Source: a virus. From it: a stretch of DNA of 23,141 nucleotides. Where the stretch lies: positions 1 through 23,141 of the IMG/VR virus record IMGVR_UViG_3300021389_000161, one strand, 5' to 3'. The translations under genes and the position numbers were made by a program. Below, piece by piece: positions 4,402 through 22,645 of the stretch. The notes below the pieces were generated by a model, which worked only from the letters and a program-made list of their open reading frames with translations, was not told the DNA's origin and did not search any database. Position 1 is the stretch's first letter. The number at the start of each line of letters is the position of its first letter.

Positions 4402-6282
4402 ATGCCTTTACAAAAATTTATATTTAATCCAGGTATAAACAAGCAGGGAACTAGCTACACTGCGGAAGGAGGCTGGTTTGATGGCAATCTTGTTAGGTTT
4501 AGAAAAGGATTTGCTGAAAAGATAGGCGGTTGGGAAAAATATATATCTGTCTCTTATGAAGGAACTGGCAGAAAGCTACACGCCTGGGTTGACTTAGACG
4601 GCACAAAGCTTCTTGGACTAGGAACTCGATACAAGCTGTACATCCAGGAAGGTTCTAGTTACAACGATATCACCCCTATAAGAAAGACTTCTGCTGCAGG
4701 CGCTGCGACCTTTGCCGCTGTCAATGGTTCTTCAACCTTAACGATCACTGATTCAAACCATGGCGCAAACATAAACGACTTTGTTACTTTTTCAGATGCA
4801 GCGTCATTAGGCGGAAACATTATTGCAGACGTTTTAAACCAAGAATATCAGATTGTTTCAGTCCCAACGACAAACACCTATACCATCACGGCAAAAGACA
4901 CAGATGGCGCTACAGTCACGGCTAATGGCAGTGATACTGGTAATGGCGGATCTTCTACTGTTGCTGCGTATCAAATAACAGTTGGTCTAGATGTCTTTGT
5001 TGACGGTACAGGTTGGGGTGTTGGCGGATGGGGCTCTGGAACTTGGGGTTCAACTAGCTCTTTAACAGATGCAAACCAGCTTCGGCTGTGGTCTATGGAT
5101 AACTTTGGTGAAGATCTGTTTGCCTGCCCAAGAGCTGGAGGACTTTACTATTGGGATAAGTCTAACGGACTTAATACTAGGGCTGTGGCGTTAAACTCTT
5201 TGGCTGGCTCTAACCTTGCGCCGACAAAAGGACTTCAAGTTCTTATCTCTGACGTTGATCGACACGCTATTGTATTAGGCGCAGATCCTATTGTTTCTGG
5301 AATAAGAAACGGTGATATTGATCCGTTACTTGTAGCATTTTCTGACCAAGAAAACATTTCAGACTGGGAGCCGAGATCCGACAACACAGCAGGGTCTTTA
5401 AGATGTTCTGCTGGATCTGAGATTATTGGCGCTGTAAGAGCTAGACAAGAAACTTTGATCTGGACTGACGTTGCGCTTTATAGCCTACAGTTTATTGGAC
5501 CGCCGTTAACCTTTGGCCTTAATCTTTTAAACGAAGGCGTAAGTTTGATTGGACCAAATGCAATGGTTAACTCTCCATCTGGAATATTCTGGATGGATAA
5601 GAAAGGATTCTACAGGTATAACGGATCTGTTGAGCCCGTTCCTTGCACTGTACATTCTTACGTTTTTGATAACCTTGACGAAGGACAATCTTTTCAAGTT
5701 GTCGGTACGTTGAACAAGCAGTTTGATGAGGTTAGCTGGTTTTATTGCAGCCTTGGCGCCACTGCCGTTGATCTTTATGTGACATTTAACTATGTAGAAA
5801 ACACTTGGTCTATTGGTCAGCTATCTAGAACAGCTTGGTTGGACGAGGGTATCTTTAATCTTCCAACTGCTGCTGGTAAGTATGGCGACACGCCGTACTT
5901 ATACTCTCATGAGATTGGCTATAACGCGGATGGCGAGCCAATGGATAACGTTTTTGTTCAGAGTGCTGATTTTGACATAGGCGAAGGTGAAGACTTTCAG
6001 TTTATTAAACGTTTTATCCCTGATGTTAAGTTTCAAGGATCTGGTTCTGACCAAACGATTAACGTTCAGATCAAGACAAGAGACTATCCTGGGCAGAGCT
6101 TTACAACAGATCAGACATCGTCATTCACAAGCACTACTAACAAGATAGATATGAGAGCTAGAGCAAGACAGGCGGCTCTTCGATTTGAATCTGATGATGA
6201 TGGCACAAATACTCAAAAGATAGATGTTGGCTTTAGGATTGGGGGAACGCGATTAGATATACAACCTAATGGTCGCAGATAA
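4402..6282 (+). CDS. Tail / DNA-stabilisation protein, P22 gp10-like, with inserted beta domain
   Basis: The product has 626 residues. The N-terminus (FIFNPGINKQGTSYTAEGG, WFDGNLVRFRKGFAEKIGGW) is a signature I associate with phage stabilisation / tail hub proteins related to P22 gp10, which close the head-tail channel. Residues 100-190 look like an inserted beta-barrel of the FCCH type found in other phage tail proteins (STLTITDSNHGANINDFVTF, then YQIVSVPTTNTYTIT). A Gly/Trp stretch (GWGVGGWGSGTWG, 204-216) follows, then a long beta-rich region with a conserved-looking EIIGAVRARQETLIWT and FWMDKKGFYRYNG. The gene starts one base after the lysozyme stop. The N-terminal signature is clear; the link to gp10 is moderate. 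Confidence 0.6.
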   Translation: MPLQKFIFNPGINKQGTSYTAEGGWFDGNLVRFRKGFAEKIGGWEKYISVSYEGTGRKLHAWVDLDGTKLLGLGTRYKLYIQEGSSYNDITPIRKTSAAGAATFAAVNGSSTLTITDSNHGANINDFVTFSDAASLGGNIIADVLNQEYQIVSVPTTNTYTITAKDTDGATVTANGSDTGNGGSSTVAAYQITVGLDVFVDGTGWGVGGWGSGTWGSTSSLTDANQLRLWSMDNFGEDLFACPRAGGLYYWDKSNGLNTRAVALNSLAGSNLAPTKGLQVLISDVDRHAIVLGADPIVSGIRNGDIDPLLVAFSDQENISDWEPRSDNTAGSLRCSAGSEIIGAVRARQETLIWTDVALYSLQFIGPPLTFGLNLLNEGVSLIGPNAMVNSPSGIFWMDKKGFYRYNGSVEPVPCTVHSYVFDNLDEGQSFQVVGTLNKQFDEVSWFYCSLGATAVDLYVTFNYVENTWSIGQLSRTAWLDEGIFNLPTAAGKYGDTPYLYSHEIGYNADGEPMDNVFVQSADFDIGEGEDFQFIKRFIPDVKFQGSGSDQTINVQIKTRDYPGQSFTTDQTSSFTSTTNKIDMRARARQAALRFESDDDGTNTQKIDVGFRIGGTRLDIQPNGRR

Positions 6283-7547: not shown

Positions 7548-9458
7548 ATGAGTATTCGTAAGTTACCTATAAAGATGATGGCTGGTGGTCATATTGGTAG
7601 TCACCTTGGCGGAACGCCAAATTTAAGTTCGGGTCGAATGATGGCAAACCTTGGCGGTGGCGATATAATTGGGGGTGGCTCCATCGGAGGCTCTTTACGA
7701 ACTGGCGATATTGGAAGAATTGGGAGTTTTTCTGATATCGCTGGATCTTCAGACTGGGGAAATTTTTTTGGCGGACTGCCAGGTGCAAGCTTAGGAAACA
7801 TTGGCGGTACACTAGGCGTCCCCACCGCATCACAGTTTTCTGGTAGCGGACAACTTCCATTGAACGTTGATATGCCATTTAGCCATATTAACTTTGACGA
7901 AGGCCCTCAGATTAGCGACTTTGATCGTAATGAGGATGGCGAAATAAGCGACGAAGAGCGTTCTGAATTTCAAAAAGCGATGAGCATCTTTATCGCACAA
8001 AATAATCAGGCAAGTGACCCTGCTGTTACTGATAACTTCTCCAGCCCAGTTACCAAGGACGAAGAAAGACCGGTAAAAGAGCCTGGAGAAGATGACGCAA
8101 ATTTTCTAGAAAGACTTGCCGCTTGGGCAAGAAGATTATTTGGAGGCGAAGGTAACATTCAGATAGGCGGGATCCCTAACTTTCCAGGTGGTGGATTTCC
8201 AACGTTTCCATTACCAGGTAGCGGCAATCCTCGCGGTGGTGGCACACCCACGCCTACACCGACACCCACACCGACACCTACGCCTGACCCTGATCCTCCG
8301 CCTACTACGCCCGTTACACCGACACCCACGCCTGATCCTGACCCAGTAGGCGATGGAACTGGCGGTGGTACGACCACTGGCCCTATAGATAATGGTACAG
8401 GCGGAGGCACCACAACCGGTCCTATAGACACTGGCACGGGTGGTGGCACAGGTGGTGGTACAGGTGGCGGGACTCCTAATGACCCAATAGATCGAAGGGA
8501 TGGCCCTAACGATCAACGCCCTAATGACGAGCCAGTATACATACCTCAATTTCCAGACTTGCCTTCCGGCGGGAATAGATCTGGAACTCAAACTGGAGGA
8601 GGCACAACTATGCCGACAGATAAAACTCAACCCAAAGATTTGCAGTTAGCTGCTCGTAATGCGGCTATGAATGTTTATAACGATCCTGCAAACTTTGAGC
8701 GGTTTGCGCCAAGTCCTTTGCAAACAATGGATTCTCGATACAGGGGCATCTCTAGCTTTCTACCTTCCGGTGAGATCACGCCTTACGGCATGAACTACCA
8801 AGGGCTTGAGGGTATGCAGTATGCAAACTATGGCGGTGGCAGACCGTTGCAAAGCTCTGGTCCTTTAACAACTTATCAAAGACCCTCGACAGGTGGTGGC
8901 ACAACAGGTGGTGGCACAACAACGCCCCCTGGAGATACGGACACGGGCTTACCGAGAGACGATATCGATTCTGATGTTGAGATTCAAACAGACGATTACT
9001 ATGAATCCATTTATCCTAAACCTGTCCGGTCTGACTTTCCGCCTTTTAGCGGAAGAGGTCAGATGGCTTCTCAAAAAGAATACGAAACCGCTTTAGAAGA
9101 ATGGGAGCAGCGAAAAAAAGATTTTGATAGGTCTATTTCAGAAATCAGCGGGGGAGGACTTGGCGAGTTAGGGATTGGCGGTATCGGATCTTTAGGTAGT
9201 ATTGCTGGATTTAGCGCAGGTGGATCTACTGACTTCCCAAGAAAGAACGGACAAATATCCGGCCCTGGCACTGAAAGATCTGATGACATTCCGGCCATGT
9301 TAAGCGATGGTGAGTTTGTTGTTAACGCTAAAGCAGTTCGAGGAATAGGCGATATGATGGGCGCTGATGGCGGCAAACACGATCAAAGACGAGAAGGCGC
9401 ACGGGCTATGTATGCGCTTCAGAAGATGGGCGAAAAAGCTGCGGGGATGTCACGATGA
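7548..9458 (+). CDS. Gly/Pro/Thr-rich virion protein with EF-hand-like loop and GEFVVNAKAVR tail
   Basis: The product has 636 residues. It starts with a Gly-rich part (1-120) and then a perfect 12-residue EF-hand loop, DRNEDGEISDEE (126-137), followed by a helix. A Pro-Thr tract (about 233-265, TP repeats) and Gly-Thr repeats (about 270-310, GTGGGTTTGPID twice, then GGGT runs) form a long flexible linker. The C-terminus (572-601) carries GPGTERSDDIPAMLSDGEFV then VNAKAVRGIG, a motif widespread at the ends of marine phage virion proteins. There is no signal peptide. GGAAG at 7536-7540 is a fair ribosome-binding site. The role is probably structural; the exact part of the virion is unknown. Confidence 0.75.
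   Translation: MSIRKLPIKMMAGGHIGSHLGGTPNLSSGRMMANLGGGDIIGGGSIGGSLRTGDIGRIGSFSDIAGSSDWGNFFGGLPGASLGNIGGTLGVPTASQFSGSGQLPLNVDMPFSHINFDEGPQISDFDRNEDGEISDEERSEFQKAMSIFIAQNNQASDPAVTDNFSSPVTKDEERPVKEPGEDDANFLERLAAWARRLFGGEGNIQIGGIPNFPGGGFPTFPLPGSGNPRGGGTPTPTPTPTPTPTPDPDPPPTTPVTPTPTPDPDPVGDGTGGGTTTGPIDNGTGGGTTTGPIDTGTGGGTGGGTGGGTPNDPIDRRDGPNDQRPNDEPVYIPQFPDLPSGGNRSGTQTGGGTTMPTDKTQPKDLQLAARNAAMNVYNDPANFERFAPSPLQTMDSRYRGISSFLPSGEITPYGMNYQGLEGMQYANYGGGRPLQSSGPLTTYQRPSTGGGTTGGGTTTPPGDTDTGLPRDDIDSDVEIQTDDYYESIYPKPVRSDFPPFSGRGQMASQKEYETALEEWEQRKKDFDRSISEISGGGLGELGIGGIGSLGSIAGFSAGGSTDFPRKNGQISGPGTERSDDIPAMLSDGEFVVNAKAVRGIGDMMGADGGKHDQRREGARAMYALQKMGEKAAGMSR
8242..8475 (+). repeat. Low-complexity Pro-Thr and Gly-Thr coding tract
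   Basis: The first part encodes repeated Thr-Pro and Asp-Pro pairs from (ACACCN)-type units, and the second encodes GTGGGTTTGPID twice followed by GGGT runs. It is a linker inside the 636-residue protein. The same base composition opens long antisense frames over this stretch, and these should be ignored. Confidence 0.8.
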
Positions 9459-12400
9459 GTGAAACAGTATTAACTGATCAGGAACAACCATATGTTCTTC
9501 CGAGTGCTTCGCAGCAGTATTATGATCCTGCGGTAGAGCTTACCTCAAGGAACCTTTTGGCGAGTTACTTCGGAACGCCTGATCAACCAGGTTTAATAAA
9601 CCAGCAGATTCCCATTCCGATTCAGCAAGTCGCTGGTCTTTCTCCGCTTGAAATACAAGCTAGAAATGCAGCGCAAGGACTTGGTGGATTTGGTGGCCAA
9701 CTTGCTGAAGCGGAAAGAATGTATCGTCAGTCTGGGCAAGGATTCGATCCCGGAACGGCTGGTATCTATGGAGATCCTCAAGCTCGAGCTTTGTATATGC
9801 AAAGCATTGGCGCTTATGATCCAACCATGGGGCAACAGTTTCTCGACGCCGAAGGGCGATCAATGATGCGAGGTGCATCTCAAGAGTTAGGTGATCTTTC
9901 TAGAAAAATACCCGGGCAAATTAATCTTGCTCAAGCTGGTATGCGAGAAGGCGAAGATTTAATTAGACAAGGCGCTGCAAGCTCTGCCGATGAAGCTGCG
10001 ATAGCTCAGAGAATGGCTTTAATGGCCTCTGGTAGGGTTGGAGGTCAAGCTGACACTGGCCAAATGGCAATGAATCGAGCTGCTTCTAATATAGGTACTG
10101 GTGTATCGCAAGCGAAGACAGAGTCTCGATACCAAGAAGGTCAAGCTCAGTCTGAAGCTGAAAATTTAAGAAAGCAGTTACAGGGATTTGGTGACCAAGC
10201 CGGTGCAGGTGCTCGGCAAGGAGAGGCTCAAATACAAAGCGCCTTAAAAGATGTTCGACCAGAAGTATTAAGAGGACAAGCTCAAGCAACTGCGGCAGAA
10301 CAAGCAGCTATTCAATCTGCTCAAAGTCTTTCTTCACAGCTCGGAACTATCGGTAGAGAAGCTGGAGCAGGCGCTAGGCAGGGTGAATCTCAAATTCAAT
10401 CTGCCTTAAGAGGTGTTCGACCTGAAGTCTTAAAAGGACAAGCTCAAGCAACTGCCGCAGAGCAAGCGGCTATAAGCTCTGCTCAAAGTCTTTCTTCACA
10501 ACTTGGAACCATAGGTAGAGAAGCTGGTGCAGGTGCTCGACAGGGAGAGGCAGCTATCGCTGCAGCTTCAAGAGGGATTAGGCCAGAAGTTTTGAGCGGT
10601 CAAGTTCAGGCAACTGCTGCAGAGCAAGCGGCCATTCAATCTGCCAAAAGTCTTTCTTCACAGCTTGGAACCATAGGTAGAGAAGCTGGAGCAGGCGCTC
10701 GACAAGGAGAGGCTCAAATACAAAGCGCCTTAAGAGATGTTCGACCCGAGGTATTAAGAGGACAAGCTCAAGCAACTACCGCAGAACAAGCGGCTATAAG
10801 CTCTGCCAACACATTATCTTCTCGGCTGGGGCAAATAGGAAAAGAAGCCGGTGCAGGCGCTCGACAAGGAGAGGCAGCGATAGCTGCAGCTTCAAGAGGT
10901 ATAGGTTCTCAAGTTGGAACGGCTCAACAAAGAGCTTTAGAGGCGACAACAAGGGCAAGGGCTCAAACAGCTCAAGCTGGAAGGCAGTTAGAAAGTGCTG
11001 GCGAATCATCTAGAAAATACGCTCAAGAAGGCATAGCTGCATTAAAAGGAACTGGCGCTCAATTTGATCCATCTACTATTGATAGGTTTATGGATCCGTA
11101 TACTCAAAACGTAATTGATGCTGAACAGGCAGAGATTGAAAGGCTTGGTAACAAGCAGAGGCAACAGGCAAAAGCTCAAGCCATTCAATCTGGTGCTTTT
11201 GGTGGATCTAGAGGCGGCATTGAGCAAGCTGAGATCGGTAGAAATATCTTGCAGCAGCAGGCTAAAACTGGTGCTCAATTAAGATCTCAAGGCTATCAGC
11301 AAGCGGCGCAACAAGCGCAGCAATCCTTTGAGCAAGCTCAAGGCCGTCAGCAAAACCTTGGACAACTGACCTCATCCCTTGGCCAAGCTGGCGCAGGAAC
11401 TCAATTACAAGCAGCACAAGCGGCAGGAAACTTAGGCTTATCTGCGGAAGAGCTGGCTCAGTCTGGCGCATTCCAGGGCGGTCAACTTGGTATGACAAGC
11501 AAGATGAACGAAGGTCAGCTTGCTGAACGAGCGGCAAACCTTGGTATTAGCACTGATCAGCTTAGATCTCAATTAGAAGGTCAAGGTCAAGCTGCACAAA
11601 TGGCTGGACAACAGATGGCTCAACGAGGAGCTTTAGATCGCTCTCAGTTAGGTATATCAGGCTTACAAACTCAATCTCAGTTAGCTGAAAGAGCAGCTAA
11701 CCTTGGAATTAGTACTGATCAATTACGATCTCAGATGGCTCAACAAGGTCAAGCATCTGAAGCCAGTTCTCAACAGATGGCGCAAAGAGGAGCATTAGAT
11801 AGAGCGCAGCTTGGCATGACAGGTCGAATGAACGAAGCTCAACTCGGAGAACGTGCAGCAAGCTTGGGCATAAGTACCGATCAATTAAGATCTCAATTAT
11901 CAGGTCAAAGTCAACAAGCAGAAATGTCGTCACAGCAGATGGCGCAAAGAGGAGCATTAGATCGTTCTCAGTTAGGAATGACTGGGCAAATGAATCAAGC
12001 TCAACTTGCTGAAAGAGCAGCTAACTTAGGCATTAGTACCGATCAATTAAGATCTCAATTATCAGGTCAAAGCCAACAAGCAGAAATGTCGTCACAGCAG
12101 ATGGCTCAAAGAGGAGCATTAGATCGTTCTCAGTTAGGTATATCAGGCTCACAAACTCAATCTCAGTTAGCAGAACGTGCCGCTAATCTTGGAATCAGCA
12201 CTGATCAGTTACGCGCTCAACTAGCGGGTCAAGGTCAAGCTGCTACTCAGCAAGGCCGACAGATGAGCCAAACAGGCGCATTCCAAAGAGCCCAAACAGG
12301 TACGCAGGGCCAGCAAGCTCAAGCAAACATTGCCAATCAAGCCGCTCAATTGGGTATCTCTACAGCGGAACTTCAAGCGCGGTTGGGTCAACAAGCATTT

Positions 12401-13072
12401 AGCACGGCTCAATCTCAAGGTCAGGCTGGGATGCAAGCTGGTAGAGATATCGGTAGCTCTGCTGCTCAACGTGGTCAGCTTGGCATGCAAGGTATTGGCG
12501 CTCAAATAGGCGCTGCTGGCCAACGTGCAGACATTGGTCAAGGCATGGCCTCTCAGTACGGCCAAGCTCAACAGATGGGCATGGGCAGTTATGAAGACCA
12601 AATGCGTAGGATGCAAGGCGCAGCAAGTGGTATGTTTGGTCAGACGCAACAACAGTATGGGACCGCCCTTAATGCATACGGCGCAAGTGGATCTGCACAA
12701 CGAGGAGGCGCTGCGGGTATTGCCGGACTTGGTCAGCAAGGATACAACATGCTTACAGGTCAGATCGGAACCATGGCAGGGCTTGGACAGACTGGTCGAG
12801 GCATTCAGGATCGCGCTTATGGCAATCAGTATACTGCTGCGACACAGATGGCTGATGAGCCGTACATGAGATTACAGCGTGGCCAGCAAATGCTTGGCGG
12901 ATTGGCTGGATACTTGCCAACATACTCAAGCGGGTATGGTACTCAGTCTAATCAAGTTGGGGCTTATCAAGATCCAAGCACAGCCGCTAAGATTGGTGGT
13001 TACTTAGGATTAGCAGGCCAAGGTTTAGATTTTTATAATCAATATCAAAACCGCAACAACCAGGGAGGATAA
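9455..13072 (+). CDS. Large Gln/Ala-rich repeat virion protein (1205 residues)
   Basis: The N-terminus (DPAVELTSRNLLASYFG, then VAGLSPLEIQARNAAQGLGG) and a central segment (FDPSTIDRFMDPYTQNVIDA at 537 onward, SGAFGGSR at 579-586, IEQAEIGRNILQQQ) are patterns I know from marine phage structural proteins. Between and after them lie two tandem repeat families, A (nt 10199-10921) and B (nt 11522-12493), both with 54-residue units. The C-terminal 230 residues are Gly/Gln/Tyr-rich (YGQAQQMGMGSYEDQMRRMQ). No membrane segment is evident. The layout suggests a long helical internal or tail-channel protein, perhaps ejected with the DNA or acting as a scaffold. It starts in a 4-base ATGA overlap with the previous gene. 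Function is inferred. Confidence 0.75.
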   Translation: MSETVLTDQEQPYVLPSASQQYYDPAVELTSRNLLASYFGTPDQPGLINQQIPIPIQQVAGLSPLEIQARNAAQGLGGFGGQLAEAERMYRQSGQGFDPGTAGIYGDPQARALYMQSIGAYDPTMGQQFLDAEGRSMMRGASQELGDLSRKIPGQINLAQAGMREGEDLIRQGAASSADEAAIAQRMALMASGRVGGQADTGQMAMNRAASNIGTGVSQAKTESRYQEGQAQSEAENLRKQLQGFGDQAGAGARQGEAQIQSALKDVRPEVLRGQAQATAAEQAAIQSAQSLSSQLGTIGREAGAGARQGESQIQSALRGVRPEVLKGQAQATAAEQAAISSAQSLSSQLGTIGREAGAGARQGEAAIAAASRGIRPEVLSGQVQATAAEQAAIQSAKSLSSQLGTIGREAGAGARQGEAQIQSALRDVRPEVLRGQAQATTAEQAAISSANTLSSRLGQIGKEAGAGARQGEAAIAAASRGIGSQVGTAQQRALEATTRARAQTAQAGRQLESAGESSRKYAQEGIAALKGTGAQFDPSTIDRFMDPYTQNVIDAEQAEIERLGNKQRQQAKAQAIQSGAFGGSRGGIEQAEIGRNILQQQAKTGAQLRSQGYQQAAQQAQQSFEQAQGRQQNLGQLTSSLGQAGAGTQLQAAQAAGNLGLSAEELAQSGAFQGGQLGMTSKMNEGQLAERAANLGISTDQLRSQLEGQGQAAQMAGQQMAQRGALDRSQLGISGLQTQSQLAERAANLGISTDQLRSQMAQQGQASEASSQQMAQRGALDRAQLGMTGRMNEAQLGERAASLGISTDQLRSQLSGQSQQAEMSSQQMAQRGALDRSQLGMTGQMNQAQLAERAANLGISTDQLRSQLSGQSQQAEMSSQQMAQRGALDRSQLGISGSQTQSQLAERAANLGISTDQLRAQLAGQGQAATQQGRQMSQTGAFQRAQTGTQGQQAQANIANQAAQLGISTAELQARLGQQAFSTAQSQGQAGMQAGRDIGSSAAQRGQLGMQGIGAQIGAAGQRADIGQGMASQYGQAQQMGMGSYEDQMRRMQGAASGMFGQTQQQYGTALNAYGASGSAQRGGAAGIAGLGQQGYNMLTGQIGTMAGLGQTGRGIQDRAYGNQYTAATQMADEPYMRLQRGQQMLGGLAGYLPTYSSGYGTQSNQVGAYQDPSTAAKIGGYLGLAGQGLDFYNQYQNRNNQGG
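10199..10921 (+). repeat. Repeat family A: 162-bp (54-residue) units, four full plus one partial
   Basis: With AGAGARQGE as anchor, units start at 10199, 10361, 10523, 10685 and 10847. Each interval is exactly 162 bp. Unit content is AGAGARQGEAQIQSALRDVR, then PEVLRGQAQATAAEQA, then a Ser/Gln-rich helix ending LGTIGRE. Units 1 and 4 (AQIQSALxDV) resemble each other most, as do units 3 and 5 (AAIAAASRGI), which suggests that a multi-unit block was duplicated. Confidence 0.92.
11522..12493 (+). repeat. Repeat family B: 162-bp (54-residue) units, about six
   Basis: With AERAANLGISTDQL as anchor, units start at 11522, 11684, 11846, 12008, 12170 and 12332. All five intervals are exactly 162 bp; the last unit (ANQAAQLGISTAEL) is diverged. 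The rest of the unit reads SQQMAQRGALDRSQLGM with a Gln-rich segment before it. Stretches of two units (about 11880-11972 and 12042-12134) differ at only a few bases, so duplication is recent. A shortened related unit precedes the array (GNLGLSAEELAQSGAFQGG). Confidence 0.92.
13063..13068 (+). promoter_or_regulatory. Strong Shine-Dalgarno for the 645-residue protein
   Basis: GGGAGG lies 8 bases before ATG 13077 and partly inside the end of the upstream gene. It is one of the strongest sites in the late block, so this gene is probably translated independently and not only by coupling. Confidence 0.6.
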
Positions 13073-13076
13073 AGTC

Positions 13077-15014
13077 ATGAACCGACAAGATATGATGTAC
13101 CGTCCAGAAATCTATGACCGTCCTATGTTTCAGACACCGCAGACCCGCCAAGGTAGCGGTATCATGGCGGGTGTTGCGCCTGTTCAAGGGTTTGAAGATG
13201 GCGGTCTTGTTGCTGAAGACTTCTTCTCTATGGAGCAGACTGAGCAAGGTTCTGGAATGAACCTTCGAGACTTGACTAACATTATCTTTGATCCGTCAGA
13301 CCCTCTTGATTATATGACCATGGGGCTTCTTTCGTTTCCGCCAGCCTATGCTGCTGCAAAACTAATGAAGGCTGGCGTCAAAGGATCCAAGCTTGTAAAT
13401 CAAATGGAAAAGTTTGACACCTTAAAAGACGCCGCCGGTACAGGTGCTAAATCTGCTGGGGCGTTTGAAGGCGTTAGGCTTGCCGGAGAAGTTCCAAGGT
13501 TATTTGAAGATGAAGAACCGCAGTTTTCAGATGAAGTTATGGAGGTTGCTAGTGCTATTAGCAACCTTCGACAGAAGCCAGATCCTGATGCTATTAGAGC
13601 AAGAGTCGCTGAATCATATGGCGATGACTTTGCCGCCCAGGTAATGGCCGCGCAAGGATTTGCGAATGGTGGCATTGCATCAATCGTTCCTAAGTTTGCG
13701 GGAGGATCTCTTGGCGGTGTTTTAATCGATAGCATACTCTTCCTTAAGAAATCAGGTGGCCCTTGGATTGAAAAGACGCTTGATGCGTTGAAGCGGGGCG
13801 AGATTGACGCTGAAGATGCAAGAAGTCTTGATCTTCCCGAGGACCTTATACAAGGCAGTGTTGGTCTTAAGGGAGGAATAGATGATATGGGCGGGGTTTT
13901 GTCACCGGCAAATGTAAGAAGAGCTGGTGATGATATTCCTGAGTTTGAAGATGATGTTATTAGAAGTGCTGAACAATCTCTTGGTGCAGGAGGCAGGAGC
14001 CCTCTTGATAATATTCCTGACGTTCAAGATGATGTTATGAGAAGCGCAGATGACTTGATTCCTCCCGATATTCCGATGATGGATCCTAGTGCTAGGCGTG
14101 GTATAGAGATGCTTGATCCTGGCGCTCCTAGACCAAGAGTTAGATCTGGAGATAGACCCGATGTCGAGATGCAAGACCCAGGCATACCTCTTGATCGTTC
14201 TGGAAATGTAATCCCTATGGCCTCTTCTTCGGAGCGAGCTGCCGCAGCAGCAGGCGGTACACGCGCAGCAAGAGGCGGCATAGAAGCATTAGCCAAGCCG
14301 CCACTGACAACAAAACAGAAAGCTGCATTAACCGCCGGAACAGTTGGCGGAGGAGCGGGAATAGCACTTACTGCCGCAAACTTTCTTGGCGACGATGAAG
14401 AAGTTGTAGATCAAGCGGCAATAGATGCTCAAGCGGCTGCTGCTGCCCAAGCTACAATAGATGCCCAAGCCGCTGCAGAAGCTTCGATAACGGAACCACC
14501 ACCAACGCCGCCAGAACCCAGCTTTCTTTCTAAAGCTGGTGATGTTGTTGGCGGTCTTCTTGCCGATAAGAAGCTTCGAGCTGGCTTGATAAGAGCCTCT
14601 AAGCCGACAGAAGGCTTTGTGCCTAGAAGCTTTGCTGCTGATGTATACGAAGGCGGGCGAGACTATGAGATTGAGCAGGCCAAGCTTAAGAATTATGAGC
14701 AGGCTGGCAAGACGGCTATGGAAAAGAACTATGAGCTTATAAAATCTATAAACCCAGGAATAAAAGACGAAGAAGCTTTAAGTCTTTTACTGAAGTCCTC
14801 AGACGGTAAAGAAGCCTTCAGGGCCAGCTTGTTTACAGCCGCTTACAAAAACCCTTTGTTAGTTGATGCAAATGGTCAACTTAAGCCTGGGACCGTTGAA
14901 CAAATAGAAGATACTGTAAATTCTGCTTATGGAGGAGAGAAAAAGGCAGATCCTAGTACATCTGGTGTGGGATCTCAAACTAGAGTCACATTGCCAGGAG
15001 CTTCCGCAACCTAA
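13077..15014 (+). CDS. Large virion-associated protein, unknown function (645 residues)
   Basis: The N-terminus (NRQDMMYRPEIYDRPMF, GFEDGGLVAEDFFSMEQ) and an internal FANGGIASIVPKFAGGSLGG are Gly-rich phrases common in marine phage virion proteins. Residues about 65-100 contain a hydrophobic helix (DYMTMGLLSFPPAYAAAKLM). The middle (about 275-400) has loose acidic and proline repeats: DDIPEFEDDVIRSAEQ, then DNIPDVQDDVMRSADD, then three MxDPxxxR-type phrases. A Gly/Ala hydrophobic segment (AALTAGTVGGGAGIALTAAN) is followed by an Ala-rich helix (QAAIDAQAAAAAQATIDAQA). The C-terminal part is helical and charged. The repeats and membrane-active-looking segments fit an internal or ejection protein. 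It ends in a TAATG overlap with the 1372-residue gene. Confidence 0.65.
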   Translation: MNRQDMMYRPEIYDRPMFQTPQTRQGSGIMAGVAPVQGFEDGGLVAEDFFSMEQTEQGSGMNLRDLTNIIFDPSDPLDYMTMGLLSFPPAYAAAKLMKAGVKGSKLVNQMEKFDTLKDAAGTGAKSAGAFEGVRLAGEVPRLFEDEEPQFSDEVMEVASAISNLRQKPDPDAIRARVAESYGDDFAAQVMAAQGFANGGIASIVPKFAGGSLGGVLIDSILFLKKSGGPWIEKTLDALKRGEIDAEDARSLDLPEDLIQGSVGLKGGIDDMGGVLSPANVRRAGDDIPEFEDDVIRSAEQSLGAGGRSPLDNIPDVQDDVMRSADDLIPPDIPMMDPSARRGIEMLDPGAPRPRVRSGDRPDVEMQDPGIPLDRSGNVIPMASSSERAAAAAGGTRAARGGIEALAKPPLTTKQKAALTAGTVGGGAGIALTAANFLGDDEEVVDQAAIDAQAAAAAQATIDAQAAAEASITEPPPTPPEPSFLSKAGDVVGGLLADKKLRAGLIRASKPTEGFVPRSFAADVYEGGRDYEIEQAKLKNYEQAGKTAMEKNYELIKSINPGIKDEEALSLLLKSSDGKEAFRASLFTAAYKNPLLVDANGQLKPGTVEQIEDTVNSAYGGEKKADPSTSGVGSQTRVTLPGASAT

Positions 15015-18000
15015 TGATTACTGTAGATTTGCCTGACGGAAGATCAGTTGATGTCGATACGGATGATAAAGCTTTTGCTTTAAAATCTGCTCAAAATTTT
15101 TACGACAACAATCCTATACAGGAAAGAGCAGTTGAATTTGGTGAAGAAGATGTTTCCGCTCCAGGAGAAATAGCTAGAGCCATAGGCGCTGGATTGGTTG
15201 GCGGGGTTGAAGGACTTGCAAGCTTCCCTGCGGAGATAATTGATTTCGTTTCTGATGGAGAAACAAACCAAGCAGAAACGGTTAGAGAGTTTTATTCGCA
15301 GTTCAAGCCAACAACATCAACCGGCTTAGGTGAAGCTGTTAAGTTTCTTACTCAGTTCGCCGTTCCAGGCGGACTAGCTGCAAAAGCTGCCAAAGCATAC
15401 AAGCTAGGTAAAGCAGGACAACTTGGCGCGTTTGGCGCTGCTGATGTACTGGCAACAACACCTGACGTTGAGACTCTAGGTGACTTTTTTGATGGAGGAC
15501 CTACCAAAAGAATAGATACGGATCAGTTAGAAGGATCTGAAAGAGCTGCTGCAGAACTAACCAACAGGCTAAAGGTTGCTGCTGAAGGTGCAGCTATAGT
15601 TCTTGGTGCTCCAAAAATTCTAGGTTTAGCTGGCGCTGGAATTGGCGCTACTGCTGACGCAGTTTCAAGAACTTCAATGGCTCAGAAGGCTGCTCAAAAA
15701 GCTGAAAGCGCATTGAGTGCAGTCAAAGATAAGGAAACCTTATACAAATTAACTGGAGTTAATTCGGGATTAGAAAATCCTCAACTTCGAAAGAGAATGA
15801 TTGATAAGGCATACTCTAAGTTAAAGAATAACTTTACGTTTCAGGGCGAAATGCCAAATGAAGTGGCAAAGCAGCTTGATGCTATAAAGTTGCAGCAAGT
15901 ATCTTCTGACAATCAGTTTGCAAGAAACAGCTTTGAAGAAATAGACAATGGATTAAAGTCGTTAAAGAAGGCTGGCAAGCTTAACGCTGAAGATGAAAGA
16001 TATGCATTAAACGCTCTCAATGACTTTATGTTTGCTGAACCCAGAACGATAGGCGGTAAGACTGTAAGTCGAGAGCTTGTCAGACAGCAAGGAAGAAGCA
16101 TTCTTGAAAGCCTTGATAAAGAGATAGCTTCATCTGATATGAAGTCTTTGTTCGGCAAAAAAGATTACAGTCTTTTAAGATCAGCTGAAGATTTCAGAGG
16201 GTATATAGACAATCTTTCTACATCTCTTTCAAAAGAAGATCAGTTCCTTGATCCAGATCTTAACAAGGCTTTGGTAAAAGCTATTGGGGAAACAAACCAA
16301 AAATATTATGGCACTAGGCTTTATAGAACCATTAAGTCTTCTCAAGAATATGTTCCCAGCATGGAACAAATAAAAGCAGCTCAAGAAGAGATAATTGAAG
16401 CAAGCAGGCAGGCGGGTGATGAGCTAACTCCGGATCAGGCTTTATCTCAACTAAACGTTATGAGAAGTAACGTTCAGTTTTCAAATGCAAAGATGAAACC
16501 TAACATGATGTTTGAAGAAGAAACATTAAAGGGTGTAAAGCAAGGAGTTTTGAAAAACAAGAAGTTGGATAATCTTCCAGCTATTAGAGACTTCTTGGGA
16601 GAATACTCTGGCGGATCTGATGTCATCGGAAGAGTCCGAAAGGACGGAACTTCTTACGAAGATGGCGTCATTAGGCAAAGAAGTTTAGAAGAACAAAGGA
16701 TTGGGTTGAGAACTAAAGCCGTTGAAACTGTTGATGTGATATCAAAGCAGTTGTCTCAAGCAAGTTATTTTAAAAATCTTCTTAAGTACAATGATTCTTT
16801 GCCTCCTGAAAGCAAGTTCATACTTGATAACGTTCAGATTACTCGGCCAGAAGACCTTGGTGCTTACTCTAGGATTGGCTTTAGTTCGCCAGATCCAACT
16901 GGAGAAATAACAGAATCAATGAAGATGAGGTTTGGCCCACTTGCAGGAAAGTACGTCAAGAAAGATTACTTAAGAGCCCTTGAGGATGCTAAAACAACCT
17001 TGGGAGATGGCCCTTTAAATAAACTGTATGCAACCTTTCTCGGGATAAAAGGTATGTCCCAGGTTGCAAAGACGGTCTACAGTCCTATTACCCAGATAAG
17101 AAACGCTACGACTGCAGCTTTCTTCGCGTTAAAGAATGGCAATTTTGGAAATGGCGAAACGTTATTAAACTCCATGCAAACAGTCTTAAGTCAAATAGGC
17201 CAAAGAAAAGTTGGTGAAGGACTAAGTCTTCCAGGAAGTATTGATAAAGGATTAAGTCTTCCAAGAAGTAACGCCAAGGCCGGTTCAAAACAAGCCATTG
17301 ATGAGTATTACAGAAAGATGATTGAGCTTGGAATTGTTAATTCCAACGCAAAAATGGGTGAGTTTGAAAGTCTTTTCAAGGATGCTTTGCAGGCCAAGAG
17401 TGGCGTGCTTGGTGGTAACATCATGAGAAAAGTTCTTAGCGCAGCGGAGAACACTCAAAACAGATTTTCTGGAAAGTTATACCAAGGATCTGATGATGTT
17501 TGGAAAATATATAGCTATGAGATGGAGCTTGGCAGACTAAGAGATGCCTTTAGCAAGAGCCCGACTAACATACCTGTAACCGATGCTCGAAACATTATTG
17601 ATTTGCAACAGTCTGGGTTAACGCCAAGTCAGCTTAAGGGCGATCAACTTGAAAACTTTCTTCAAAGAGAAGCTGCCGAGATCGTAAAGGATACAGTGCC
17701 TAACTACGCTAGGGTTCCTGAGTTCATTAAAACTTTAAGAAAAGCTCCTTTAGGAAACTTCATTGCGTTTCCTGCTGAGATAATCAGAACCAGCGGAAAC
17801 GTAATTGGTCGGTCGATTAAAGAATTAGCAAGCGAATCTCCAGAGATTAGATCTATTGGCATGAGGCGTTTAATGGGAAGTCTAGCTGTAGATGGCGGCA
17901 TAGCTGGCGGTCTTTCCGCTTCTGCAATGATGCTCACTGGATCTTCACAAGAACAAGTAGATGCTTTTAAAAGATCTTTTGCTCAAGATTGGGAAAAGAA

Positions 18001-19132
18001 TGCAACACTTATACCAATCGCTTCTGACAAGGACGGCAATGTCACGGAGGTTTACAATTTTTCTTACACAAACCCATACGACTATCTTACTAAGCCAGCA
18101 AGAGCTGCATTTAATGCTGTTAATAATGGCATTACAGCAGAAAAAGATCTTTCAAATATAGCTCTTGATGCAGCCTGGGAAAGTAGTGGTGAGTTCTTTT
18201 CTCCGTTTTTCAGTGAGTCAATTATTACTGAAAAAATATTAAATCTTGGACGAAACAAAAACGCTTATGGCGGTCAGATATATAACGATGCGGACCCACT
18301 TGGGTTAAAGGTTTCAAAAGGATTCGCTCATTTTGCAGAAGGTTTAACTCCAGGCATAAGCCCAATATCTCTTAAGGGAGATGTGTCTAGTCCGGCTTAT
18401 ATTGGTTACGATGTAAAGGATTTTCCAAGGGCCATAGGTCAGGCTTTGGGCGCAGACGCAATGTCCGGTGTTAACAAAAGAGGTGTTAGGATTGATGCTG
18501 CGGGTAAGTTTGTTGAAGCTTTAAGCGGTGTTAAAACCATTAAGCTTGATATAGAAAAAACCCTACAGTATAGAGGGTACGAAGCCGCTCGACAGGTAAG
18601 AGAAGCCTCTAGGATCTTTAACCAGGTCGCAAAGTCTAGAGGAAAAGTCGAAGCTTCGGCTGTAACTAAAGCTTATATTCTTGCTAACGAACAAAGGTTT
18701 AAAGCATTGCGAGACCTAAGCGTTGCTATCGATGATGCAGAAAAACTTGGCATTGATAAGCCTAGTATTTACAAGTCTTTATCTAAAGCCAAGACGCCTC
18801 ATATTCCTGAACTGTTTGCAAAACAATTTGTTCCATTCTTCCCAAGCAGTCAGACAATTTCAGAAGCTATTAGAAGCGATAGCAATAAAGTTTCAAACCC
18901 ATTTGACATGACGGCTATAGGATCTAGTCTTGCAGATTTTTCTAAGATGAGATACACGCCAAAAGCTGTTGAAGAAAGACAACAACAGATGGCACAACCT
19001 CCGGGCTCCATCATGCCGCCACCTATTCCTGGTGCTGTACCACCGCCTTCACCTCCGCCACCTCAATCATTATTTAACCGTGGCATAGAAGCACTGCGAG
19101 ATATAGAATTAGATAAACTAATGGGTTCCTAA
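15014..19132 (+). CDS. Giant putative internal virion / DNA ejection protein (1372 residues)
   Basis: The N-terminus ITVDLPDGRSVDVDTDD resembles the short ubiquitin-like N-terminal module of other phage ejection proteins. Gly/Ala-rich hydrophobic segments occur at about 52-75, 188-216 and the 950s (LAVDGGIAGGLSASAMMLTG). Three conserved-looking motifs lie in the second half: SPITQIRNATTAAFFALKNG (from residue 690), YQGSDDVWKIYSYE (about 823-836) and APLGNFIAFPAEIIRTSG (from 911). I recall these together from large marine phage proteins. The C-terminus is Pro-rich (PPPIPGAVPPPSPPPPQ). Size and place at the end of the virion gene block match T7 gp16-type proteins, but I see no clear lytic transglycosylase motif. 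Function is inferred. Confidence 0.65.
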   Translation: MITVDLPDGRSVDVDTDDKAFALKSAQNFYDNNPIQERAVEFGEEDVSAPGEIARAIGAGLVGGVEGLASFPAEIIDFVSDGETNQAETVREFYSQFKPTTSTGLGEAVKFLTQFAVPGGLAAKAAKAYKLGKAGQLGAFGAADVLATTPDVETLGDFFDGGPTKRIDTDQLEGSERAAAELTNRLKVAAEGAAIVLGAPKILGLAGAGIGATADAVSRTSMAQKAAQKAESALSAVKDKETLYKLTGVNSGLENPQLRKRMIDKAYSKLKNNFTFQGEMPNEVAKQLDAIKLQQVSSDNQFARNSFEEIDNGLKSLKKAGKLNAEDERYALNALNDFMFAEPRTIGGKTVSRELVRQQGRSILESLDKEIASSDMKSLFGKKDYSLLRSAEDFRGYIDNLSTSLSKEDQFLDPDLNKALVKAIGETNQKYYGTRLYRTIKSSQEYVPSMEQIKAAQEEIIEASRQAGDELTPDQALSQLNVMRSNVQFSNAKMKPNMMFEEETLKGVKQGVLKNKKLDNLPAIRDFLGEYSGGSDVIGRVRKDGTSYEDGVIRQRSLEEQRIGLRTKAVETVDVISKQLSQASYFKNLLKYNDSLPPESKFILDNVQITRPEDLGAYSRIGFSSPDPTGEITESMKMRFGPLAGKYVKKDYLRALEDAKTTLGDGPLNKLYATFLGIKGMSQVAKTVYSPITQIRNATTAAFFALKNGNFGNGETLLNSMQTVLSQIGQRKVGEGLSLPGSIDKGLSLPRSNAKAGSKQAIDEYYRKMIELGIVNSNAKMGEFESLFKDALQAKSGVLGGNIMRKVLSAAENTQNRFSGKLYQGSDDVWKIYSYEMELGRLRDAFSKSPTNIPVTDARNIIDLQQSGLTPSQLKGDQLENFLQREAAEIVKDTVPNYARVPEFIKTLRKAPLGNFIAFPAEIIRTSGNVIGRSIKELASESPEIRSIGMRRLMGSLAVDGGIAGGLSASAMMLTGSSQEQVDAFKRSFAQDWEKNATLIPIASDKDGNVTEVYNFSYTNPYDYLTKPARAAFNAVNNGITAEKDLSNIALDAAWESSGEFFSPFFSESIITEKILNLGRNKNAYGGQIYNDADPLGLKVSKGFAHFAEGLTPGISPISLKGDVSSPAYIGYDVKDFPRAIGQALGADAMSGVNKRGVRIDAAGKFVEALSGVKTIKLDIEKTLQYRGYEAARQVREASRIFNQVAKSRGKVEASAVTKAYILANEQRFKALRDLSVAIDDAEKLGIDKPSIYKSLSKAKTPHIPELFAKQFVPFFPSSQTISEAIRSDSNKVSNPFDMTAIGSSLADFSKMRYTPKAVEERQQQMAQPPGSIMPPPIPGAVPPPSPPPPQSLFNRGIEALRDIELDKLMGS

Positions 19133-22500: not shown

Positions 22501-22618
22501 GTATCTCTCCTAATAAGGGGTGATCCGTTGCGACTACTGGTGGATCAAGCCAGTGTAAGAAGGTTTTTATACCCCAAGTCTTTTGAAAAGTTTCGTCAGG
22601 TCAAGCCTTCTCAAATAC

Positions 22619-22645
22619 TTTTCACCCTTTTCACCCTTTTCAGGG
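22619..22645. repeat. Three tandem 9-bp repeats (TTTTCACCC, TTTTCACCC, TTTTCAGGG)
   Basis: The units lie at 22619-22627, 22628-22636 and 22637-22645. The third differs in the last three bases, and this change creates the inverted repeat with the second unit. They lie 8 bases beyond the stop of the DUF669-like gene. The iteron-like pattern could be a protein-binding site. Confidence 0.75.

Follow-up and report, generated by a model that had tools for sequence, protein, structure and literature searches.

Two tandem repeat arrays of equal period as probable length-matched legs of a hairpin in a putative podovirus DNA-ejection protein

The stretch of viral DNA analysed here (the window: IMG/VR record IMGVR_UViG_3300021389_000161, positions 1 to 23,141, 23,141 nt) is a fragment of the genome of a marine podovirus, and one of its genes, P0001 (9455..13072, plus strand, as are all parts of it described below), raises the question of why two tandem arrays of unrelated sequence in one protein should have the same period. 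This single open reading frame (ORF) of 1,205 aa carries both arrays. Array A consists of four 54-residue units (aa 249–464, 10199..10846), each with an AGAGARQGE start, followed by an 18-residue partial copy that extends to 10900. Array B consists of five 54-residue units (aa 690–959, 11522..12331), with a predicted helix break at LGIST. Tandem Repeats Finder detected a period of 162 bp in both, at 10197–10875 for array A (4.2 copies, 0% indels) and at 11511–12211 for array B (4.3 copies). The mean BLOSUM62 self-score of region A was 3.42, 3.47 and 3.08 at lags of 54, 108 and 162 residues, with all other lags at or below 0.22; the corresponding scores of region B were 2.37, 2.17 and 1.97, and its best other lags, again multiples of 18, scored 0.5–0.6. 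These results bear out an earlier note on this DNA, which had described two arrays of different sequence with a shared, indel-free period of 162 bp, or 54 residues. The 18-residue parts that it had recognized within the array B unit also proved real, and lags of 18, 36, 54 and 72 recur across the protein family. Its starts for both arrays (10199 and 11522) stand, while the end that it gave for array B, 12493, includes a sixth, degenerate unit in the degenerate flanks of the array. The arrays are rich in Q, A, G and S. Differences between units fall mostly at third codon positions, and the ratio of non-synonymous to synonymous substitution rates (dN/dS) between units is approximately 0.10–0.20 in array A and 0.12–0.26 in array B, indicating that the 54-residue period is kept by purifying selection on the protein.

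The answer that we consider probable is that arrays A and B belong to two mostly helical legs that pair in antiparallel orientation to form a hairpin of a DNA-ejection protein, and that these legs match in length residue for residue. Leg lengths were taken from fixed anchors in 208 related loci, mostly metagenome contigs. Region A (length LA) was defined from AGLSP..QARN to FDPS..F[MQ]DP and region B (length LB) from QLTGSLGQAG to Q.LG..[FY]..QM, and the C-terminal part was ended at P[FY]MR.QRG. Among these loci, LA ranged from 129 to 478 residues and LB from 53 to 402, and LA−LB was 76 in 61 of the 64 distinct proteins; one further protein, which has small indels near its N anchor, gave 77. 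The core between the two regions measured 100 residues in 156 of 156 measurable loci, and the C-terminal part 97 in 143 of 143. Relaxed anchors gave 13 length pairs (LA/LB), and the pair 176/100 represents a 7-residue deletion in each leg compared with a sister at 183/107. Coupled changes, the same in both legs, amounted to 7, 18, 36, 54, 61, 72, 216 or 270 residues; those of 7 to 72 residues are all sums of 7- and 11-residue steps, by which the helical phase is approximately preserved. In a tree built from conserved parts free of gaps (363 columns, 61 proteins), with change counts that assume this gene tree, LA required 25 changes, LB 26 and the LA/LB pair 27; thus, nearly every length change was joint to both legs. 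Well-supported branches alone force 11, 8 and 5 changes for the three commonest length classes.

Repeat copy number changes even within nearly one virus, and equally in both arrays. Two relatives (L001 and L002), sharing >99.6% identity with the window, contain identical arrays, while the arrays differ in four others (L003, L004, L005 and L007) that are mostly 92–98% identical to the window in aligned neighbouring DNA. L005 is without four A and four B units (−216/−216), leaving ~0+1; L004 and L007 have 270 residues fewer in each leg and no units; L003 has two A units, and its leg B runs off the contig. Loss of matched units was also seen as −54/−54 in near-identical viruses. Assembly collapse was considered as the cause of the absent units and judged unlikely, because the copies are only 59–85% identical in DNA, because two assemblies agree for the long state and for the array-less state, and because equal loss from two arrays is not expected of collapse. 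Absolute length is loosely controlled, as shown by the difference of 270 residues in each leg between near-identical viruses; what is required is that the legs be equal. The earlier note had proposed a rod whose shared period serves to measure length or to match the pitch of DNA. A long, mostly helical rod containing both arrays agrees with our results, but neither role does: viruses with 94–98% identity in neighbouring genes have 4+5, ~0+1 or 0+0 units, so that protein length is not tied to a fixed dimension, and the range of coupled changes argues against DNA-pitch matching or any special value of 54, which is the lateral unit of the window lineage and not a general quantum of the family. 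The shared period would instead arise because the arrays oppose each other in an antiparallel hairpin, in which their lengths must match.

The position of the turn was given by the indels and by structure prediction. Leg A (aa 132–578, 9848..11188) and leg B (aa 587–1027, 11213..12535), each predicted to be mostly helical and each locked in length to the other, flank the turn SGAFGGSR (aa 579–586, 11189..11212), which lies within the core delimited by the FDPS and QLTSSLGQAG anchors (11063..11362); in the hairpin base (aa 1039–1205, 12569..13069), the part up to the PYMRLQRG anchor measures 97 residues in every relative measured. In comparisons of sister proteins, the indels of the two legs were about equally far from the core. 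Between L055 and L042, for instance, each leg has two 36-residue insertions in mirrored positions (185 and 91 in A, 165 and 83 in B). The mirror centre implied by the indels falls approximately 42 residues past FDPS, at the GAFGGSR motif, of which G, F, GG, S and R are invariant in the alignment of relatives. The earlier note had named structure prediction as a check on the arrays, and AlphaFold2 models of L004, which has no arrays, and of window aa 1–1199 were mostly helical in the legs, at low confidence (predicted local distance difference test, pLDDT, 59–60; predicted template modelling score, pTM, 0.26–0.28). Helices in window leg A were predicted at 132–248, 256–372, 385–530 and 549–578, and both models broke exactly at the GAFGGSR motif (309–315 in L004, 579–586 in the window). 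Under a mirror of i+j ~1165 in the window protein, the LGIST breaks of array B (aa 697, 751, 805, 859 and 913) fall on the AGAGARQG starts of array A (465, 411, 357, 303 and 249), giving one break per leg per 54-residue unit, opposite each other. Leg A segments of other lineages align to a common pattern under the same mirror. Covariation between the legs was analysed within 66 residues of the tip, the part poor in indels. Pairs at equal tip distance made up 44–46% of the top 50 (21% expected) at 0.90–0.95 weighting, and antiparallel register 0 ranked first among 58 registers, or second at the strictest weighting (0.80). Covariation out to 100 residues was set aside, because coupled indels would themselves create a signal.

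In the arrangement that we propose, the chain would run from a conserved N-terminal base up leg A, which holds array A, turn at GAFGGSR and return down leg B, with array B, to a conserved C-terminal base; as A and B would lie side by side, a change in one leg would call for a change of exactly as many residues in the other. As the most likely role, several hairpins would leave the head with other ejection proteins and join a trans-envelope DNA conduit, with leg length setting the reach under loose control. More tentatively, and with some doubt, several hairpins might together build a helical barrel of adjustable length to convey phage DNA across the envelope, in which matched 54 (or 18/36)-residue units in both legs would retune length between near-identical viruses, perhaps following host envelope geometry. 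A leg of 505 residues, if fully helical and straight, would measure approximately 76 nm at 1.5 Å per residue. This exceeds the interior of a typical head for a 50–60 kb genome, and therefore either the leg is bent or the chain does not form a single straight helix; bending could occur at the break predicted in every 54-residue unit.

Several observations weigh against this proposal. Two proteins, L136 and L141, deviate from LA−LB=76 by 36 residues. Leg A of L136 is 100% identical to that of L078 (147/71) and its leg B is closest to that of L050 (183/107), and leg A of L141 is 100% identical to that of L150 (183/107) and its leg B closest to that of L191 (147/71); because each joins the legs of two lineages, these proteins look either like assembly chimeras or like natural recombinants, with a junction inside the conserved core. 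Changes on the tree may be overcounted owing to recombination, and the origin of most sequences in metagenome contigs has to be borne in mind. With the low confidence of the AlphaFold2 models, leg-to-leg contacts were not directly seen, array B was drawn as helix–break–helix units and not as a single straight helix, and Foldseek found no significant match for either model. The covariation test, at 10–35 effective sequences, is weak alone. The window protein itself matched no PHROG at E≤0.001 and no Pfam family, and its putative membership of PHROG 4287 rests on relatives, core similarity and synteny.

The legs could also pair between different subunits, in an antiparallel dimer or a larger bundle, and the length law alone does not tell intramolecular from intermolecular pairing. 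However, an invariant loop rich in glycine, such as one expects of a tight turn, is the site of both the helix break and the mirror centre, and minimal homologues (278–294 aa) keep the order of base, leg, GAFGG-like turn, leg and base. We thus regard pairing between subunits as unlikely and infer that the legs pair within one chain.

A role in DNA ejection is suggested by the homologues. The core of the window protein matched gene 42 of CV-1-33 (E 7e-7). A tblastn search of the whole protein against phages gave no match, probably due to the low-complexity filter, and the core alone found two records. The profile of PHROG 4287, annotated as 'DNA ejection protein', matched L042 (2.8e-14), HTVC023P (2.3e-10), DSL-LC04 (6.9e-9), CV-1-33 (4.6e-5) and phiM5 (6.5e-91), and covers most or all of the DSL-LC04, HTVC027P, HTVC023P, CV-1-33 and phiM5 homologues. 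These homologues and that of ct7 have the same layout, with legs of 56–117 residues to the tip. With the end anchors of the most distant homologues chosen by eye, the difference between the legs (a−b) is −37 to −46 in distant homologues compared with −51 in the window, for legs of 56–505 residues to the tip. Four members of PHROG 4287 (phiM5 gene 27, HTVC023P gp81, HTVC027P gp83 and the 294-aa protein of DSL-LC04) share with the window protein a GAFGG[S/G/T]R-like tip, the order base–leg–tip–leg–base, matched legs (a−b −37 to −42) and a place in the internal-virion gene cluster; they differ in their short legs without long tandem arrays, as opposed to the 505-residue leg with 54-residue units of the window. 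The same gene order follows the gp10-like gene in DSL-LC04, HTVC027P and phiM5. The record of the phiM5 homologue states its detection in the particle proteome. The ct7 homologue continues beyond the hairpin with Peptidase_S74 and then an SLT transglycosylase, a fusion that fits a protein helping to cross the cell wall; apart from these two domains and an HNH_repeat below the cut-off in ct7, no Pfam match was found in the relatives. By extension from these homologues, as regards both location in the virion and ejection, we take the window protein to be a probable internal-virion (DNA-ejection) protein; the virus would be P22-like, a podovirus with relatives in the HTVC023P group.

The same relatives bring up an external fibre or tail needle as an alternative to an internal ejection protein. 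In many of them, Peptidase_S74, a chaperone typical of tail fibres, follows the hairpin (as in the C-termini of L042, L016 and L055, the window protein and L004 being without it), and the needle gene of P22 follows gp10. As S74 is usually found on trimeric fibres, it may hint at the oligomeric state. On the other hand, PHROG 4287 and PHROG 6121 are annotated as DNA ejection protein and virion structural (head) protein, the ct7 homologue is fused to the SLT transglycosylase, and the genes that come after it carry annotations as internal virion or DNA transfer proteins, leaving a fibre or needle only a small probability.

Far less probable is a tape-measure-like ruler, in which the repeats would set a fixed virion dimension and unit number would scale with it. 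Siphophage tape measures are, like the window protein, long virion proteins with 11/18-residue repeats of variable copy number (PMC3271669), and the neighbouring gene at 7548–9458 shares a motif with tape-measure PHROGs. However, a siphophage tape measure is a single rod whose total length sets the length of a long tail, whereas here two legs are coupled, and the virus, judging by its gp10-like tail module, is short-tailed. A ruler would need a total length, yet the equality of two separate segments is what is conserved, and viruses near-identical in neighbouring genes can be as much as 270 residues apart in the length of each leg. An alpha-solenoid, or a pair of unrelated low-complexity spacers expanded by chance with the same period, would agree with the Q/A/G/S-rich composition and with the locally high pLDDT of the helix–break–helix units drawn for array B, but predicts independent leg lengths, contrary to the coupling over approximately 25 changes; together with the selection on sequence (dN/dS 0.1–0.26), this makes it extremely improbable.

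A close parallel to the proposed hairpin is the cytoplasmic hairpin of bacterial chemoreceptors (methyl-accepting chemotaxis proteins), with the heptad classes of Alexander and Zhulin, a conserved tip and symmetric heptad insertions and deletions in both legs (PMC5907407). Mirrored, equal-length changes around a conserved tip are likewise found in the window family. The two differ in that the quantum is 7 residues in chemoreceptors, while in the window family, which has tandem arrays of high identity, it is mostly 18, 36 or 54 (7 and 61 also occur). No homology to the chemoreceptor signalling domain was seen in the window protein, which is without a Pfam match. With respect to function, podovirus internal proteins ejected to build a trans-envelope conduit, namely T7 gp15/gp16 and those of Phi-M1 (PMC8954989, PMC11440229), resemble the proposed role. 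An hmmsearch of the family profile against PDB gave no hit at E≤0.1, and no sequence relation to these proteins was found. A phmmer match to the designed circular tandem repeat protein 8etq was taken to reflect the composition of helical repeats. Literature searches brought up no report of leg lengths coupled in this way in ejection proteins of phages, although this does not prove that none exists. Little is understood of podovirus ejection proteins, which virion structures frequently lack. For a family present in many marine phage contigs, a length law that holds over approximately 25 changes and legs of 56–505 residues provides a structural model derived purely from sequence. It also raises an evolutionary question, namely, how unit number can change equally in two distinct 162-bp arrays of a single gene.

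Two other loci concern the extent of the family. Roseobacter phage CRP-902 gp34 (L085, 14080–15522) is possibly related; it has a GGAFGSR motif and no PHROG match, and its C-terminal side contains six 18-residue repeats (RFGAEDVMRGQFMEDRQA), its N-terminal side repeats of 12 residues. The sole bacterial genome contig found to encode a relative (L214, 4395 bases) belongs to a Maricaulis sp. metagenome-assembled genome; it may point to a host, or it may come from a phage and have been binned with that genome.

The hairpin gene is embedded in a set of plus-strand genes. A P22 gp10-like phage stabilization protein (4402..6282) marks a short-tailed (podovirus) tail module. In phage DSL-LC04, the syntenic counterpart of the 636-aa neighbour (7548..9458) is the 'tail tape measure protein', and the C-terminus of this neighbour (9150–9458, GPGTERSDDIPAMLSDGEFVVNAKAV) carries the motif of many tape-measure PHROG C-termini, although the phage looks short-tailed; a similar motif is also present in DSL-LC04 and HTVC027P proteins. 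Downstream of the hairpin gene come a 645-aa neighbour (13077..15014), matched in position by a DSL-LC04 protein that also has 645 aa, and a 1,372-aa protein (15014..19132), whose relatives include a putative structural protein of HTVC027P and whose syntenic counterpart in DSL-LC04 is the 'DNA transfer protein'. At the start of the window, a tail-spike-like ORF (2–2167), open at its beginning, contains many short NTAVG..AL.xNTTG repeats and a C-terminal Peptidase_S74 chaperone. Near the other end, a short tandem repeat, CTTTTCACC (22618–22642, 2.8 copies, 100%), lies between minus-strand ORFs.

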